Shown: piece by piece, positions 8,452 to 16,158 of the stretch
Layout of the letters: every line of letters begins with the position of its first letter
Position numbering within the stretch: position 1 is the stretch's first letter
Source of the DNA: Bacteroidales bacterium
GTDB lineage: Bacteria > Bacteroidota > Bacteroidia > Bacteroidales > PXBB01
Assembly: GCA_028698995.1 (NCBI GenBank)
Contig: JAQVVM010000047.1
Location: 1 to 36,756 of the forward strand
Direction of reading: 5' to 3'
DNA length: 36,756 nucleotides
Translations under genes and position numbers: made by a program
Notes under the pieces: model-generated
Database searches by the model: none
What the model saw: the letters and a program-made list of their open reading frames with translations, nothing else
What the model was told of the DNA's origin: nothing

Positions 8452-8465
8452 ACATATTATGTCAA
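8449..8465. promoter_or_regulatory. Palindromic operator candidate for the XRE controller
   Basis: TTGACATATTATGTCAA is a perfect inverted repeat with 7-base arms and a 3-base centre. It overlaps the -7 box and the first possible ATG (8459) of the regulator. A further half-site ATGTCAA lies at 8474-8480, and the methylase gene also begins with TATTATGTCAAC (from 9130). This layout fits autoregulation by a restriction-modification controller protein. Confidence 0.6.
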
Positions 8466-8473
8466 TTAATATT

Positions 8474-8785
8474 ATGTCAACAGAAACTACAGGAGATAAA
8501 TTAAGGCACATTCGAGAAGAAAAGAAGCTTCCATTGCGGAAAGTTGCTGCATTGCTCGAAATTGATGTAGCTATTTTGAGCAAAATGGAGCGTGGCGAAC
8601 GGAGAATTACTAAAGAAGTCGTTCTAAAACTTGCCGGCATATACAATCACAACGCAGACGAACTTCTGGTTTCCTTCCTGAGCGATAAGATTTTGTATGA
8701 AATTCAAAATGAAGATTTGGGAATTGAAGCACTTAAAGTTGCGGAGGAGAGAGTAAAATATTTAAAAACTATGAAGAGAAAATGA
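8474..8785 (+). CDS. XRE-family HTH transcriptional regulator (controller-protein-like)
   Basis: The protein (103 residues from this start) has a Cro/C1-type helix-turn-helix: GDKLRHIREEKKLPLRKVAA forms the first helices, LEIDVAILSKMERGERRIT the recognition helix and turn, and VVLKLAGIYNHNADELL the closing helices. A 30-residue helical tail, rich in Glu and Lys, follows. Small proteins of this type act as controllers of restriction-modification genes. I chose ATG 8474 because related proteins that I recall begin MSTETTGDKL; an in-frame ATG at 8459 sits inside the operator and would add five residues. Its stop overlaps the next gene as ATGA (8782-8785), so the two are translationally coupled. 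It probably represses or tunes its own promoter and perhaps the methylase promoter. Confidence 0.88.
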   Translation: MSTETTGDKLRHIREEKKLPLRKVAALLEIDVAILSKMERGERRITKEVVLKLAGIYNHNADELLVSFLSDKILYEIQNEDLGIEALKVAEERVKYLKTMKRK

Positions 8786-9132: not shown

Positions 9133-12042
9133 ATGTCAACGCAATTATTTGAACAACATATTATCGACTTAAATTTCTCTTTATTAGACGATAACAAGAA
9201 GAGTGGCGTGCTGTTGACAAATAATTTTGAATATTTGGATTCAAATTTGGCATCACCAGAGATACTTTTCGCACTGGAGACTGCTAAAAATAAATTTCAA
9301 GCTGATGCTGTCTATTTTAGACACTTCCAGGATGGCAGAGCTTACGTGCCTCAATTATATCTGTTTGATTATACTCACAAAAAAATTACTCATGAAGATA
9401 AGAACAATATACATATCCAAATGTGGAATGGCTATCAAGTTCCAGCCTATATAATAATTGAGCAATCGTCTGTAAGTATATTTGATTCGCGAAAAAAACC
9501 AAAAGAAGAAAAAAATAGTTATGCCGAAGAAATATTAACATGGTCGGGCGAGGCTATTAAAGACTTTAATGCAAAAGAATTTGACAGCGGAATATTTTGG
9601 GATGAGCAAAATGAGAAAAAGGATTTTCGTTTTGAGCAATCTGCAACTAAAGATTTGATTAGGGGGTTAAAAGAAGTTTTCAAAAGCTTTCTTGACGAAT
9701 CAGGATTGAATCGACACGTTGCCTTAAAGCTTTTAGTTCAAAGTCTTTTAATAAAATACCTTGAGGAAAGAGATATGAAAAGTGCCAGCGGTTATTTTGC
9801 AGGAACATATTTCAGGAAAAATTTCCAATGCTCTGATTTTTGCGAAACTATTCGGGAAGGCAAACTTCTTAATTTGCTTGACAAATTAGCAGAAGATTTT
9901 AACGGAAAAATATTCGAATGGGACAAAGAAAAAGAAGCTATAGAAAGAGAAGCCATTCAGCAATCAAAAGTCAAAACCCTAGCTCATTATTTGTACGGTA
10001 ATATCCAAAACAATCAGTTTGTAATCTGGCGATTATATTCCTTTACGCATCTGCCCGTTGAGGTTATTAGTTCGGTTTATGAAGAGTTATTGACGGATAG
10101 TAAAGATATTGTATATACCCCCGAAATGATTGTTAGCACTTTAGTGGATGAATGTATGCCATTAAAGATGCCCCAAAAAGATTTTAAAATAATTGATGTT
10201 AGCTGTGGTTCTGGAATTTTTCTTGTGAAAACCTACAAACGTATCGTTCAATGGTGGAGATATGAGGAGTGGAAGAAAACAGGAACACTCATTAAACCGT
10301 CATTATCAGTTTTAAAAGAGCTTTTATTACAAAGTATTCATGGTGTTGATATTGAACAGGATGCCATTCGTTTATCTGTATTTAGTTTGGCACTAGCTGT
10401 TTTAGATGAGGTTGATTTAGACCCACCAACATGGGAAAAATTAAAGTTTCCCGATTTAAGTAAAAATATAATTACTAAGGATTTCTTTGAATATATAATG
10501 AGCAAACCGAATGCGAATTTCGATTTGGTTATCGGCAATCCTCCTTTTAATTTACCCCCTGTAAATGGTAAAGAACCTAACAGAACAAAGTATTTTAAAG
10601 AATTTAAAGATAAAATAGGATACAAAAGTGAAATAAATATTCCTGATGAGAATCCTGCGTTTCATTTTCTTGTTCAATCTTTAAAGCTGCTAAAAGAAAA
10701 CGCTTTACTCTGTTTTATACAGCCATCTGGGCCGATTCTTTATCAAAAAGACCTGCGTTTTAAGCAAGATTTATTTTTTCAATATAATTTACTTCAAGTT
10801 ATTGACTTTACAAAGCTTTCAGATAAGCTTTGGGGCAGGAAAAATGTAGCTACAGCAGCGGTTTTTATTCAAAATTCGAAACCCGACAATAGGGATGTTT
10901 TGCATCTTGTTGCAAATCGTACCTTTTCAAATACGAATCGACTATTTTTAGAATTTGACCATTACGACTTTCATCTATTATCAAAAGACGCCCTTTTAAA
11001 TAACCCCCATGTTTGGAAGGCAAATTTGATGGGTGGTGGTAGATTAGGACAACTGATGGAAAGGCTTTCTAAAATTAGAACTTTATATGAGTTCTTAGAA
11101 GAAAAAATGATTCAAGGATGGGAAAAAGGAGAAGGCTTTATTGAAAACAAAAAAGGTAAAGAATTAGATTATATAACTGGACGAGAATTCCTTCCAACAA
11201 TTGGGTTTTCTGAAGATGGAATAAATTATTCCATGATTGAAAACTGTACAGTTGAAAAATTTCATAGAAGGACTAATCCTAACATTTTTAAAGGTCCTCA
11301 TTTACTAATTAGAAAAATTCTTCCACCCAGCAAATTAATTGTTGAATATGTTGAAAAAGACCTTGTTTTTAAAAGCGATATTTTAGCGATACATGCACCA
11401 ACTGAATCTGCAAAAGAACTAGAGAAATTAGAGAACTACATTAAGTCTAACAATCTATTATTACGTTTCTATATTCTAGCAACAAGCAGTAGGGTTAAAA
11501 TAATAAAAGCTACGTCCCTATATGATGAAGATATTCTAAATATTCCTTATCCTATAAACTTTAAGGATGTTAAGCTTTCAGAAGCGGAGGAGATCGTTTT
11601 AAATGACTCAATGACCTATTTTTTAAATTCTGGTTCAAAAAACATTCTTGAAATGAATATCTCTGAGAATGACATTTATGAATATTCAGTTATTTTCTGT
11701 AAAACGCTGAACAGCATTTATCAAAAAGAAAAATCATTTCAATTGTTTAAAATAATTGATGCTGGTAAGTATTATGCATTACATTTTGAATTCTCAGATG
11801 AAACAATAAATCCAGAACAAGAAAAAGTCTGCGATTTAGAGCAATACATTGAGGAAGCAATTCCAACACGAACGGAGAATCAGCAAAAAGCACATATACA
11901 AAGGATAATAAAGGCTTATGGAAAAGACTCTATCGTATTAGCCAAACCAAAACAACGTCGTTACTGGTTGCCGTCAATCGCATTAAGGGATGCCGATGAT
12001 ACTTTTGCGGACTACGTTAAAACCCGATACCACAATGCTTAA
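9133..12042 (+). CDS. N6-adenine DNA methyltransferase (Eco57I/type II-like) with C-terminal target recognition region
   Basis: The 969-residue protein has the SAM-binding motif I in IIDVSCGSGIFLV (Asp about residue 355) and the catalytic motif IV NPPF at residues 469-472, which defines N6-adenine methylases of the gamma-like order. An N-terminal domain of about 130 residues (with DAVYFRHFQDGRAYVPQLYL) precedes a helical segment. The region after about residue 620 contains GPHLLIRKILPPSKLIVEYV and ATSSRVKIIKATSLYDEDIL, typical of TaqI-like target-recognition domains. I see no PD-(D/E)xK motif inside the protein, unlike true type IIG enzymes; the nuclease appears to be the next gene, which starts within the last 8 bases (ATGCTTAA). 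Together they look like a restriction-modification pair. Recognition sequence is unknown. Confidence 0.9.
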   Translation: MSTQLFEQHIIDLNFSLLDDNKKSGVLLTNNFEYLDSNLASPEILFALETAKNKFQADAVYFRHFQDGRAYVPQLYLFDYTHKKITHEDKNNIHIQMWNGYQVPAYIIIEQSSVSIFDSRKKPKEEKNSYAEEILTWSGEAIKDFNAKEFDSGIFWDEQNEKKDFRFEQSATKDLIRGLKEVFKSFLDESGLNRHVALKLLVQSLLIKYLEERDMKSASGYFAGTYFRKNFQCSDFCETIREGKLLNLLDKLAEDFNGKIFEWDKEKEAIEREAIQQSKVKTLAHYLYGNIQNNQFVIWRLYSFTHLPVEVISSVYEELLTDSKDIVYTPEMIVSTLVDECMPLKMPQKDFKIIDVSCGSGIFLVKTYKRIVQWWRYEEWKKTGTLIKPSLSVLKELLLQSIHGVDIEQDAIRLSVFSLALAVLDEVDLDPPTWEKLKFPDLSKNIITKDFFEYIMSKPNANFDLVIGNPPFNLPPVNGKEPNRTKYFKEFKDKIGYKSEINIPDENPAFHFLVQSLKLLKENALLCFIQPSGPILYQKDLRFKQDLFFQYNLLQVIDFTKLSDKLWGRKNVATAAVFIQNSKPDNRDVLHLVANRTFSNTNRLFLEFDHYDFHLLSKDALLNNPHVWKANLMGGGRLGQLMERLSKIRTLYEFLEEKMIQGWEKGEGFIENKKGKELDYITGREFLPTIGFSEDGINYSMIENCTVEKFHRRTNPNIFKGPHLLIRKILPPSKLIVEYVEKDLVFKSDILAIHAPTESAKELEKLENYIKSNNLLLRFYILATSSRVKIIKATSLYDEDILNIPYPINFKDVKLSEAEEIVLNDSMTYFLNSGSKNILEMNISENDIYEYSVIFCKTLNSIYQKEKSFQLFKIIDAGKYYALHFEFSDETINPEQEKVCDLEQYIEEAIPTRTENQQKAHIQRIIKAYGKDSIVLAKPKQRRYWLPSIALRDADDTFADYVKTRYHNA

Positions 12043-12721
12043 AGATTCATTGCCAACATATCAAACGCCACGAGATAATGACCTTAGTGTAGCTCCAAAT
12101 TTTGAAGTGGATTTAGTGTTGTCATTTATTGATACGCATGTTCCGAATTTTTCTTCATATTACCTATCAACAAAGGATTCAGAAAAGGAAAATAGAATAA
12201 GTGATATTCTTGTTAACCATTTTGAATTATGTAAACATGAATCTGGTGGCTATTTTCCTTTTAGGTTTAGTAAAAATCCAACGCAAGCAGAATCGGATAA
12301 AGAAACAGATATTGGCGTATTTGTGATGACTCGAAATCAAACACCTCTCCCAATAATTGAATTTGAAGCAAAAAGATTTTCAGAATCATCAAATAATAAA
12401 GAGTACGTATGTGGGTTACGGGGAGGAATTGAACGTTTTAAAAGAGGGCACCATTCTTCACATCTTAAAGTTTGTGGCATGTTTGGATATATTCAAAGTC
12501 GTACTTCTCCTGATTGGATTGAAAAAATAAATAATTGGATTAAAGAATTGTCTGTTAGTAATGTTGACAACACAATAGATTGGACAGGAAGTGAAGAAAT
12601 GCTGACAAAAACAGATTCCTTCTCATTCGTTGATAAGCTGTATTCATTTCACACTAGAAAATCTACGGATGATAAGATTTTACTTTGGCACTACTTGATT
12701 GAATTGATAAGTAAGAATTGA
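12035..12721 (+). CDS. Putative PD-(D/E)xK restriction endonuclease
   Basis: The 228-residue protein contains TDIGVFVMTRNQTPLPIIEF followed by EAKRF: Asp92 then Glu111-x-Lys113, the spacing expected of a PD-(D/E)xK nuclease core. A preceding helix KENRISDILVNHF could supply the first conserved Glu. The chosen ATG at 12035 overlaps the methylase stop by 8 bases; an upstream in-frame ATG at 11990 would overlap by 53 bases and is less likely. The linkage suggests it cuts unmethylated DNA at sites protected by the methylase, or acts as an effector for the helicase protein downstream. Family assignment is by motif only; no close named enzyme is recognised. Confidence 0.75.
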   Translation: MLKDSLPTYQTPRDNDLSVAPNFEVDLVLSFIDTHVPNFSSYYLSTKDSEKENRISDILVNHFELCKHESGGYFPFRFSKNPTQAESDKETDIGVFVMTRNQTPLPIIEFEAKRFSESSNNKEYVCGLRGGIERFKRGHHSSHLKVCGMFGYIQSRTSPDWIEKINNWIKELSVSNVDNTIDWTGSEEMLTKTDSFSFVDKLYSFHTRKSTDDKILLWHYLIELISKN

Positions 12722-12871: not shown

Positions 12872-13186
12872 ATGGACACAGACGATTTATCTATACCCAC
12901 TTATAATGGAATCATCATAGAAGCCGAAAAGTTTAATCACGATTTGACTTTGCAGTTTGGGGTATTAGCTTCTCAATGTAAAGAAGATGATGATTATTTG
13001 AACAAAGCAGAAGATTTGATTAAGGAATGGCTTATAAAGGATCATTTCGAGGATATCATTGATGATGTTTTCTATGGAGAATCTGTTAACGAAAAAGCGT
13101 TCAGAAAAATATTAGATATAATATTAGCTAATATAAGTGAAATTAGAAAAACACCAATGGATAAAAGGGAATTTGAAAACTGGTAA
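12872..13186 (+). CDS. Hypothetical acidic helical protein (104 aa)
   Basis: The protein is strongly acidic (many Asp and Glu), with no signal peptide or membrane segment. It reads as helices: IIIEAEKFNHDLTLQFGVLA, DDDYLNKAEDLIKEWLI, HFEDIIDDVFYG and KAFRKILDIILANISEI. I do not recognise a named domain. TAGGAATAAATA before the ATG gives a modest ribosome binding site. The primase-helicase gene begins 12 bases after its stop, so the two are probably one operon and this protein may be a small partner of the helicase. Confidence 0.7.
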   Translation: MDTDDLSIPTYNGIIIEAEKFNHDLTLQFGVLASQCKEDDDYLNKAEDLIKEWLIKDHFEDIIDDVFYGESVNEKAFRKILDIILANISEIRKTPMDKREFENW

Positions 13187-13198
13187 AAACAGTAAATA

Positions 13199-16158
13199 AT
13201 GGAACCATTCTCTGAAAACACGCAACACTTCCGCTCTCTTTTCAAAGGACGAGAAGACGTGTTTGCCATTCGTTGGGAAAAGGCTAACAAATCCGGTTAT
13301 ATGCCAGCAATGTTTTATGACCCGTATCGCTTAAGGGCTCATAAAATGAACGGCTGTACATTTCAGAACTTTTCCGAGAAATCGTATTTAAGGTTTGATG
13401 ATGAACAAATCCATAAACATTTGGATGGTTATCATCAAGTAGGTGTTTATCCGCTATTCAAGACAATACATCGTGGTTCTTAGCAGCTGATTTTGACAAG
13501 GCAAATTGGCAAAAGGAAGCTGTTACTTTTCTGAACGCTTGTAAAGAAAAGGAAATCCCAGCCTACTTGGAACGTTCCCGTTCGGGAAACGGTGGACACG
13601 TTTGGATATTTTTTGATAAACCCTATCCTGCTGTAAGAAGTCGTAAAATATTCATATACATTTTAGAGCAATCGGGTGCATTTTCAATGTTTGATAAAAG
13701 CTCAAGTTTTGACAGGTTATTTCCCAATCAGGATTTTCTATCGGGCAAAGGTTTTGGCAATTTGATAGCTTTGCCACTTTACAAGCCCACTTTTGAAAAA
13801 GGAAATAGTTGTTTTATTGACACAAAAACTTTTGAACCTATTAAAAATCAATGGGACTATCTAAGAAATATTCAAAAAGTTTCAACAGATTATTTAAACG
13901 AAATCTATTCAGGGTTATCATCAGACGCTCAAACACAAATTCCAAAAGATATAGGCGATAAGCTTTCTATAAGATTAAACAATAAAATAAGGTTAAGCAG
14001 AAATAGACTCCCTCCTTTACTTATCAATTTTCTTAAGGATGAGCTGAATTTTGCTAACTCTGAATTCTTCATCAAAAAGAAATCAGGCAGAAACACCTTT
14101 GAAACACCACGTTTTTTTAAAATGGTTGAAGAAACAGAGGGTGAAGTTATTATCCCCAGAGGGTTTATTGGTAAACTTTTAAGATTTTGCAAAGAAACCC
14201 AAATTAATTATGATTTTTTAGATGAAAGGAAACTAAAACCATTGTCAACTTTTGTTTTTAGTGCTACGCTTCGAAAACATCAGCACCAAGCAATAGAAGA
14301 CGTTAGCAAAAAGGATTTCGGAGTAATTGTTGCGCCACCAGGTGCAGGAAAAACAGTTGTCGGGATAAAAATTATTGCCGAGAAAAAACAGACTGCACTT
14401 ATTATTGTTCATCGAAAACAATTATTGGAGCAATGGACAGAGCGAATTGAAGCATTTTTGGGCATTCCTAAAAAAGATATTGGGGTAATCGGACAAGGAA
14501 AAGCAAAAATCGGCAAACAGATTACAGTGGCAACTATTCAAAGTTTGCCCAAACAAATTGATAATATTAAAAATCAACTCGGATTAATTATAGTTGATGA
14601 ATGTCATCACATTCCTGCTGAAACATTCAGAAATACTATAGAAGAATTACAAACTTTTTATCTATACGGATTAACCGCTACACCTTTCAGAAAGTACAAT
14701 GATGGGAAAATGATTTTCGCACATTTGGGTGAAATTATTGCCAACATTCAAACCACAGAAATTGAAAACTTTAAACAGGCTAAAATTATTATCAGAAATA
14801 CAGCATTAGAAGTACCATACAACTCCAAAACCGATAGTTTCGAAGCTTTATCAAAAATCTTGGTTCACGATACTGCCAGAAATAAACTGATTTTGGAAGA
14901 TGTAAAAACAGAATTGAATCAAGGTAAAAAAGCGGTTGTTATTACCGAAAGAAAAGAACATATTGATTCGCTGTATTTGTTTTTGAAACAGTCGTTTGAA
15001 GTCATCACCTTAAGCGGAGGAGATACAGAAATTTCCAAAAAGAACAAATGGAAATTTTTGCAAAATGGGAGCTTTCAAGTTTTAATAACCACAGGGCAAT
15101 ATTTTGGCGAAGGAACTGATTTGCAAAATATTAACTGTTTGTTTTTGGTCTATCCGTTTTCTTTTGAAGGTAAACTAGTTCAATATATTGGCAGGGTACA
15201 ACGCTCGGAAATCAACCCTGTCATTTACGATTATCGAGACTATAAAATTGATTATCTCAACAAACTTTTTTTCAGACGCAATGTTTATTACCGAAAAATT
15301 GAGAAGCAAGCAACTTTATTTGATGAACCAAGGGAGGAAAGCACAGTTTCAAATATCATTATTACTTTAGAAAAGAAAATTAAAATTCCAATTGATGAAA
15401 TGGAGTTCCACTACGGTAGTGTAGCATTCAATTATAAAGTGGTCGAATTGAATACAAAATTGCAATTTCATGTTGTAAACGGTGAAATTAGACCTGAATT
15501 TGAAGTCTTAAAATCATATTTTTCCAAAGAGTTGAAATCAAAGTTTTTAACAGTAGATGTATTTGTGGAATTTGAAAACGGGAAACCTGTGTCTCAATTA
15601 GCTTTATCAACTGATATTGAGCGTATTAATAAAGAGGTTATTGAGGGTGTTAAATTCCAGTTTTTAAATAAAACGTTGATGAAGCAATTCTCCTCCAAAA
15701 ATAAGAATGTACTGACTTCGGATGAATTACAAGGGCATGAAAAAATTTATCCTAATGCAGAAGACTTATTGAATGTGATTCTCAAGAATAAGCAATACAA
15801 ACATTCTCAGCATATTAAATATTTGGCAGAAAAACATGAAACCCAGATAATGAAAATCCGCTTCGTGTTAAATCCCTTTTCATTTGTTTTTCTACTTGCT
15901 GGGGAGAATAGTTATTTTATTGTTTTGGAAACATTGGACACAGAAGAAGCTACCTATATTTGGCAAACACAAAAAAATAGAATAGCTCTTATTGAAGAAG
16001 TTAAAAAAATTGACACCCAATTAAGCATTATTAGAGAAAAAGGAAGACAATCTTTTTTGGAAAACAGCCCTACAAACTTTACCCGTATTTTACACGATTA
16101 TTCTGATAACAATAAAGGATTTGTAATATGGAGAACGGTATTAAAAGAAATAATTTAA
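13199..16158 (+). pseudogene. AEP primase-SF2 helicase of TOTE conflict-system type, split by a one-base frameshift
   Basis: Two frames (13199-13483 and from 13462 to 16158) form one gene interrupted near 13460. The first frame encodes LFKGREDVFAIRWEK and HQVGVYPLFK, then runs into junk and TAG. The second frame continues as DNTSWFLAADFDKANWQ and SGNGGHVWIFF. Adding one A at 13460/13461 restores a 986-residue protein. The N-terminal third is an archaeo-eukaryotic primase domain with the metal-binding pair in ADFDK and the SGNGGHVW motif. The rest is an SF2 helicase with Walker A APPGAGKT (about residue 382 of the restored protein), DECH box near 467, TATPF near 493 and motif VI QYIGRVQRS. The long intact downstream frame argues for a very recent mutation or a sequencing error. 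An internal TTG start at 13567 could still give a helicase lacking the DxD motif. Confidence 0.85.

Follow-up and report, generated by a model that had tools for sequence, protein, structure and literature searches.

A primase-helicase gene of a Bacteroidales defence island split by a one-base frame change, probably a recent inactivation

TOTE conflict systems (TPR, OB, TBP, Effector) are named in PMC12458937, which cites Aravind, Iyer et al. 2022; by the features given there, TPR-OB (cold shock) and TBP genes lie close to an effector, which may be an AEP or another protein. We analysed a stretch of 36,756 nucleotides from a Bacteroidales bacterium (hereafter the window), one gene of which encodes the AEP domain to which Pfam gave the name of these systems. 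A Pfam scan of the reading frames of the surrounding island matched HTH, methyltransferase and helicase domains only, and no TPR-cold-shock or TBP partner was recognized among them. The gene is a member of the AEP-TOTE family, but it is not a TOTE system as defined. An homologous AEP core is found in the CRISPR-associated primase-polymerase (NCBIfam NF040561; PADLOC PDLC01465). Against NF040561, however, the two fragments of the window gene score 67.0 and 34.9 bits, below the curated cut-off of 200, and the window protein has an XPB-like helicase fused instead; no cas gene was recognized among the window reading frames scanned. The helicase core is like that of XPB/Rad25 and RadD (PDB XPBII, E 2e-23; NF045503, NF053632), but the window scores are far under the equivalog cut-offs and the protein carries an N-terminal AEP domain. 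Proteins encoded by a Gelidibacter MAG (locus L003), Belliella kenyensis (L004) and Alkalitalea saponilacus (L005) combine AEP-TOTE and SF2 helicase domains in the same order and at the same length, with 76–78% protein identity. These three copies are in one frame, whereas the window copy is split. The features of the island and of the split gene are as follows.

8459–8785, forward strand: HTH (Cro/C1-type) regulator of the island, with homologues that are 87% (L004) and 81% (L026) identical.
9133–12042, forward strand: Eco57I-type N6-adenine DNA methyltransferase, type IIG-like, intact.
11990–12721, forward strand: predicted PD-(D/E)xK nuclease of 243 aa, overlapping the methyltransferase gene, with invariant D107, E126 and K128 and no Pfam family.
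12872–13186, forward strand: 104-aa reading frame directly upstream of the primase-helicase gene, a position that its homologues also occupy in L004, L012 and L027.
13199–13483, forward strand: 5′ fragment, the first third of the AEP-TOTE primase domain (PF22548 positions 3–83, E 1.9e-22).
13459–13462, forward strand: frame-change point, CAAG, at which the profile positions meet without loss and the homologue alignment is unbroken.
13462–16158, forward strand: 3′ fragment, with the remaining AEP domain, an SF2 (XPB/RadD-like) helicase core and a C-terminal extension (AEP-TOTE 84–229, ResIII, DEAD, Helicase_C).
13489–13497, forward strand: DFD, putative AEP metal-binding DxD motif, present only in the second frame and conserved among aligned homologues.

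An earlier note on this DNA had described a first frame that ends at a TAG at 13481–13483 while another frame continues, and re-reading the sequence confirmed it. The reading frame at 13199–13483 (forward strand) encodes 88 native residues followed by 6 out-of-frame residues and the stop codon, ending in ...HQVGVYPLFKTIHRGS. From 13462 the second frame reads DNTSWFLAADFDKANWQ and remains free of stops for 898 codons, until 16158; it is open from 13417 to 16158 on the same strand, and the two frames overlap at 13417–13483. PF22548 scores 80.4 and 190.8 bits in the two frames (positions 3–83 and 82/84–229), both above the gathering score of 27 bits that defines membership, and a whole-genome search agrees. 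The two matches abut with every domain residue accounted for, so the break is explained by one single-base frame change at about 13459–13462. The matches to AEP-TOTE (PF22548) and SF2 helicase domains also bear out the identification of the gene as a primase-helicase, and the frame change does lie, as proposed, just 5′ of the DxD motif, with DFD downstream of it. The 'A run' placed at the site by the note is not there: the sequence is CAAG, an A2 dinucleotide rather than a long run. By the pseudogene criterion of a frame disrupted relative to intact homologues, the primase-helicase gene is disrupted.

The closest relatives of the gene are from Bacteroidota. A search of the genome collection returned 27 loci, 13 of them from Bacteroidota with 59–78% identity over most or all of the protein and a continuous site, and further relatives were added by order-wide and class-wide searches. 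Close Bacteroidota relatives run in one frame through the site and encode about 985–1004 aa, which agrees with the length of about 986 aa that had been expected. None of the relatives examined is broken at the same place. The assembly, when searched, held no second or intact copy of the protein or domain, and thus no intact variant contig. The exact break site was absent from the viral contigs searched, the island was not found in plasmids by megablast, and phage records gave nothing beyond helicase-level similarity.

Our preferred explanation, which we consider probable, is that a defence-associated primase-helicase was inactivated by a one-base frameshift in its primase domain, probably recently. 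A sequencing, consensus or assembly error, in which case the organism's gene would be intact and the break would mean nothing biologically, is a serious possibility that falls short of an even chance. The earlier note had named both inactivation and error as possible causes, and these are the right candidates for a one-base frame change in an otherwise intact gene. Error would fit a lone one-base change within 986 otherwise intact codons and the little decay downstream of it. It would also fit the state of the assembly, which contains runs of N and, within repetitive genes, two suspect breaks; the source genome is a 4.47-Mb draft in 119 contigs, 98.3% complete and with 3.37% estimated contamination. 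The site is only A2, however, and much longer runs are in frame: the gene itself has 11 A/T runs of 6–7, and the window's coding genes have 12 of length 8. Homopolymer error therefore does not seem to be a weakness of these data, which makes the suggested error in an A run less likely. Comparable breaks were also few elsewhere in this assembly: a codon-usage scan of 615 coding regions in 947 kb gave 23 loose candidates. The threshold had missed the known site when strict and was relaxed until it was recovered, so that its sensitivity is tuned to that case. Judged by eye alone, only the primase-helicase site and two places in long repetitive genes look like breaks within a gene; most of the 23 are instead explained by a run of N, by open frames lying opposite genes, or by neighbouring genes that do not start with ATG. 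Taken together, the A2 site, the intact long runs and the small number of other breaks favour a real mutation over an error.

In the very long repetitive surface-type genes of this genome (L091:237-13259), one frame break and a stretch of N were noted; faulty assembly of the repeats is the probable cause.

The inactivation, if real, is probably recent. Walker A, DECH and other helicase motifs are still readable downstream of the break. We estimated pN/pS at about 0.21 for the window gene against its relatives, compared with 0.14–0.19 for the relatives among themselves, a slight rise that could come from saturation or from a fast-evolving lineage. Of 193 columns that are otherwise invariant, the window gene deviates at 6; most close relatives deviate at 0–3 and distant ones at up to 16. 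Relative-rate tests were mixed, with no difference for L012. Old neutral decay was considered as well and is excluded by the 898 stop-free codons, the readable helicase motifs and the low pN/pS.

Under inactivation, ribosomes would stop at 13483 and yield a 94-aa fragment that lacks the DxD motif, so that neither primase nor helicase would be made at a useful level. The adjacent methyltransferase and nuclease, a restriction-modification (R-M) pair that occurs elsewhere without the primase-helicase, would be expected to keep working. Judging by its domains, the intact protein would combine a helicase that translocates on DNA with a primase that carries out primer or gap-filling synthesis. The most likely significance of the break is the ordinary loss of an accessory defence gene, and the mutation would then belong to the usual turnover of such genes.

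Two further readings would leave the gene with some function. That an internal start (TTG 13567 or ATG 13687) still gives a helicase-only protein with part of the function seems to us quite improbable. There are 863 open codons from TTG 13567 and the helicase motifs are retained, but this TTG is internal to the AEP domain and its primase fold, and no in-frame ATG occurs before 13687. Re-initiation would need a second-frame start codon close to the TAG, and there is none; promoter signals are not above chance (16 found, 12.6 expected) and pN/pS is slightly raised; none of the points tested supports the product from TTG 13567 that the earlier note had suggested. Programmed frameshifting or phase variation that gives full-length protein part of the time is hardly credible. 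In its favour, a downstream hairpin is slightly stabler than shuffles (z −1.5), but this is unexceptional (11 of 200 shuffles are equally stable). The overlap at 13417–13483, read directly, has no X XXY YYZ slippery heptamer, 13455–13465 has no simple repeat or invertible element, and the homologues encode the protein in a single frame with none broken at the site; the lack of a heptamer, a repeat, a near start codon or a relative broken there disfavours recoding and slippage-type phase variation, and with no second copy either, the switch that had been raised is unlikely.

We return to the preferred reading, the inactivation of an accessory gene, and to the setting in which this gene occurs. 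The methyltransferase and nuclease were together in all ten order-mates with a readable methyltransferase side, and the primase-helicase was absent within the 1.5 kb examined at each of these ten loci. Because the pair recurs without the primase-helicase, it represents a separate R-M module, the genes of which are intact in the window. In L005, an M.Eco57I-like methyltransferase, the Gabija genes GajA and GajB, and the primase-helicase form one apparent operon (L005:547-8697), the last gene starting 4 bases after GajB. The primase-helicase follows AbiEii in L003, SIR2 and HerA fragments in L002, and a Schlafen AlbA_2 protein in L004. Given that the defence operons vary and that it lies at their 3′ end, it is apparently an accessory gene. 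Away from contig ends, 6 of 41 primase-helicase genes, window included, are broken, at different places and by different means.

Window: one-base frame change in the primase domain.
L002 (Lacinutrix neustonica): in-frame stop.
L026: truncated gene.
L027 (Brumimicrobium oceani), L027:5716-7223: residues ~115–938 replaced by a gene for a 304-aa DUF6602/NucC-like PD-(D/E)xK nuclease, with both old ends left.
L039: late frameshift.
L075: 5′ end lost, and stops.

Set beside these breaks, a control gene gives a third argument for a real mutation: among 34 matched genomes, many of them with the primase-helicase, IspG showed no internal stop. The comparison is rough, as IspG is shorter and essential, and in many genomes only part of it could be aligned. 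The SIR2 and HerA genes beside the primase-helicase in L002 (L002:1444-4476) have each been split into several fragments, a sign of either decay at the locus or noise in its sequence; for this reason we do not weigh the in-frame stop there as strong evidence.

A broader reading, which we put forward tentatively and regard as rather unlikely, is that a portable AEP-helicase serves as a 3′ add-on to unrelated defence operons (R-M, Gabija plus methyltransferase, AbiE, SIR2-HerA and Schlafen-type) and is costly or dispensable and repeatedly lost, with the replaced interior in L027 as one outcome and the window as one fresh loss. If confirmed, the wider pattern of a primase-helicase located behind various unrelated defence systems, and frequently broken, would be important: it would suggest that different systems share a repair or amplification step and that carrying the gene has a cost. 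Of all the results, only this repeated pairing with defence genes and repeated loss deserves further work. The break in the window is of minor consequence on its own: annotators should note that the window copy is split, and tests of the system should use an intact relative. Possible split genes, or else errors, were also seen in distant homologues (33–38% identity), in the form of stops or shifted frames close to where the primase domain ends, at L015:865, L021:6388 and L024:6400-6540.
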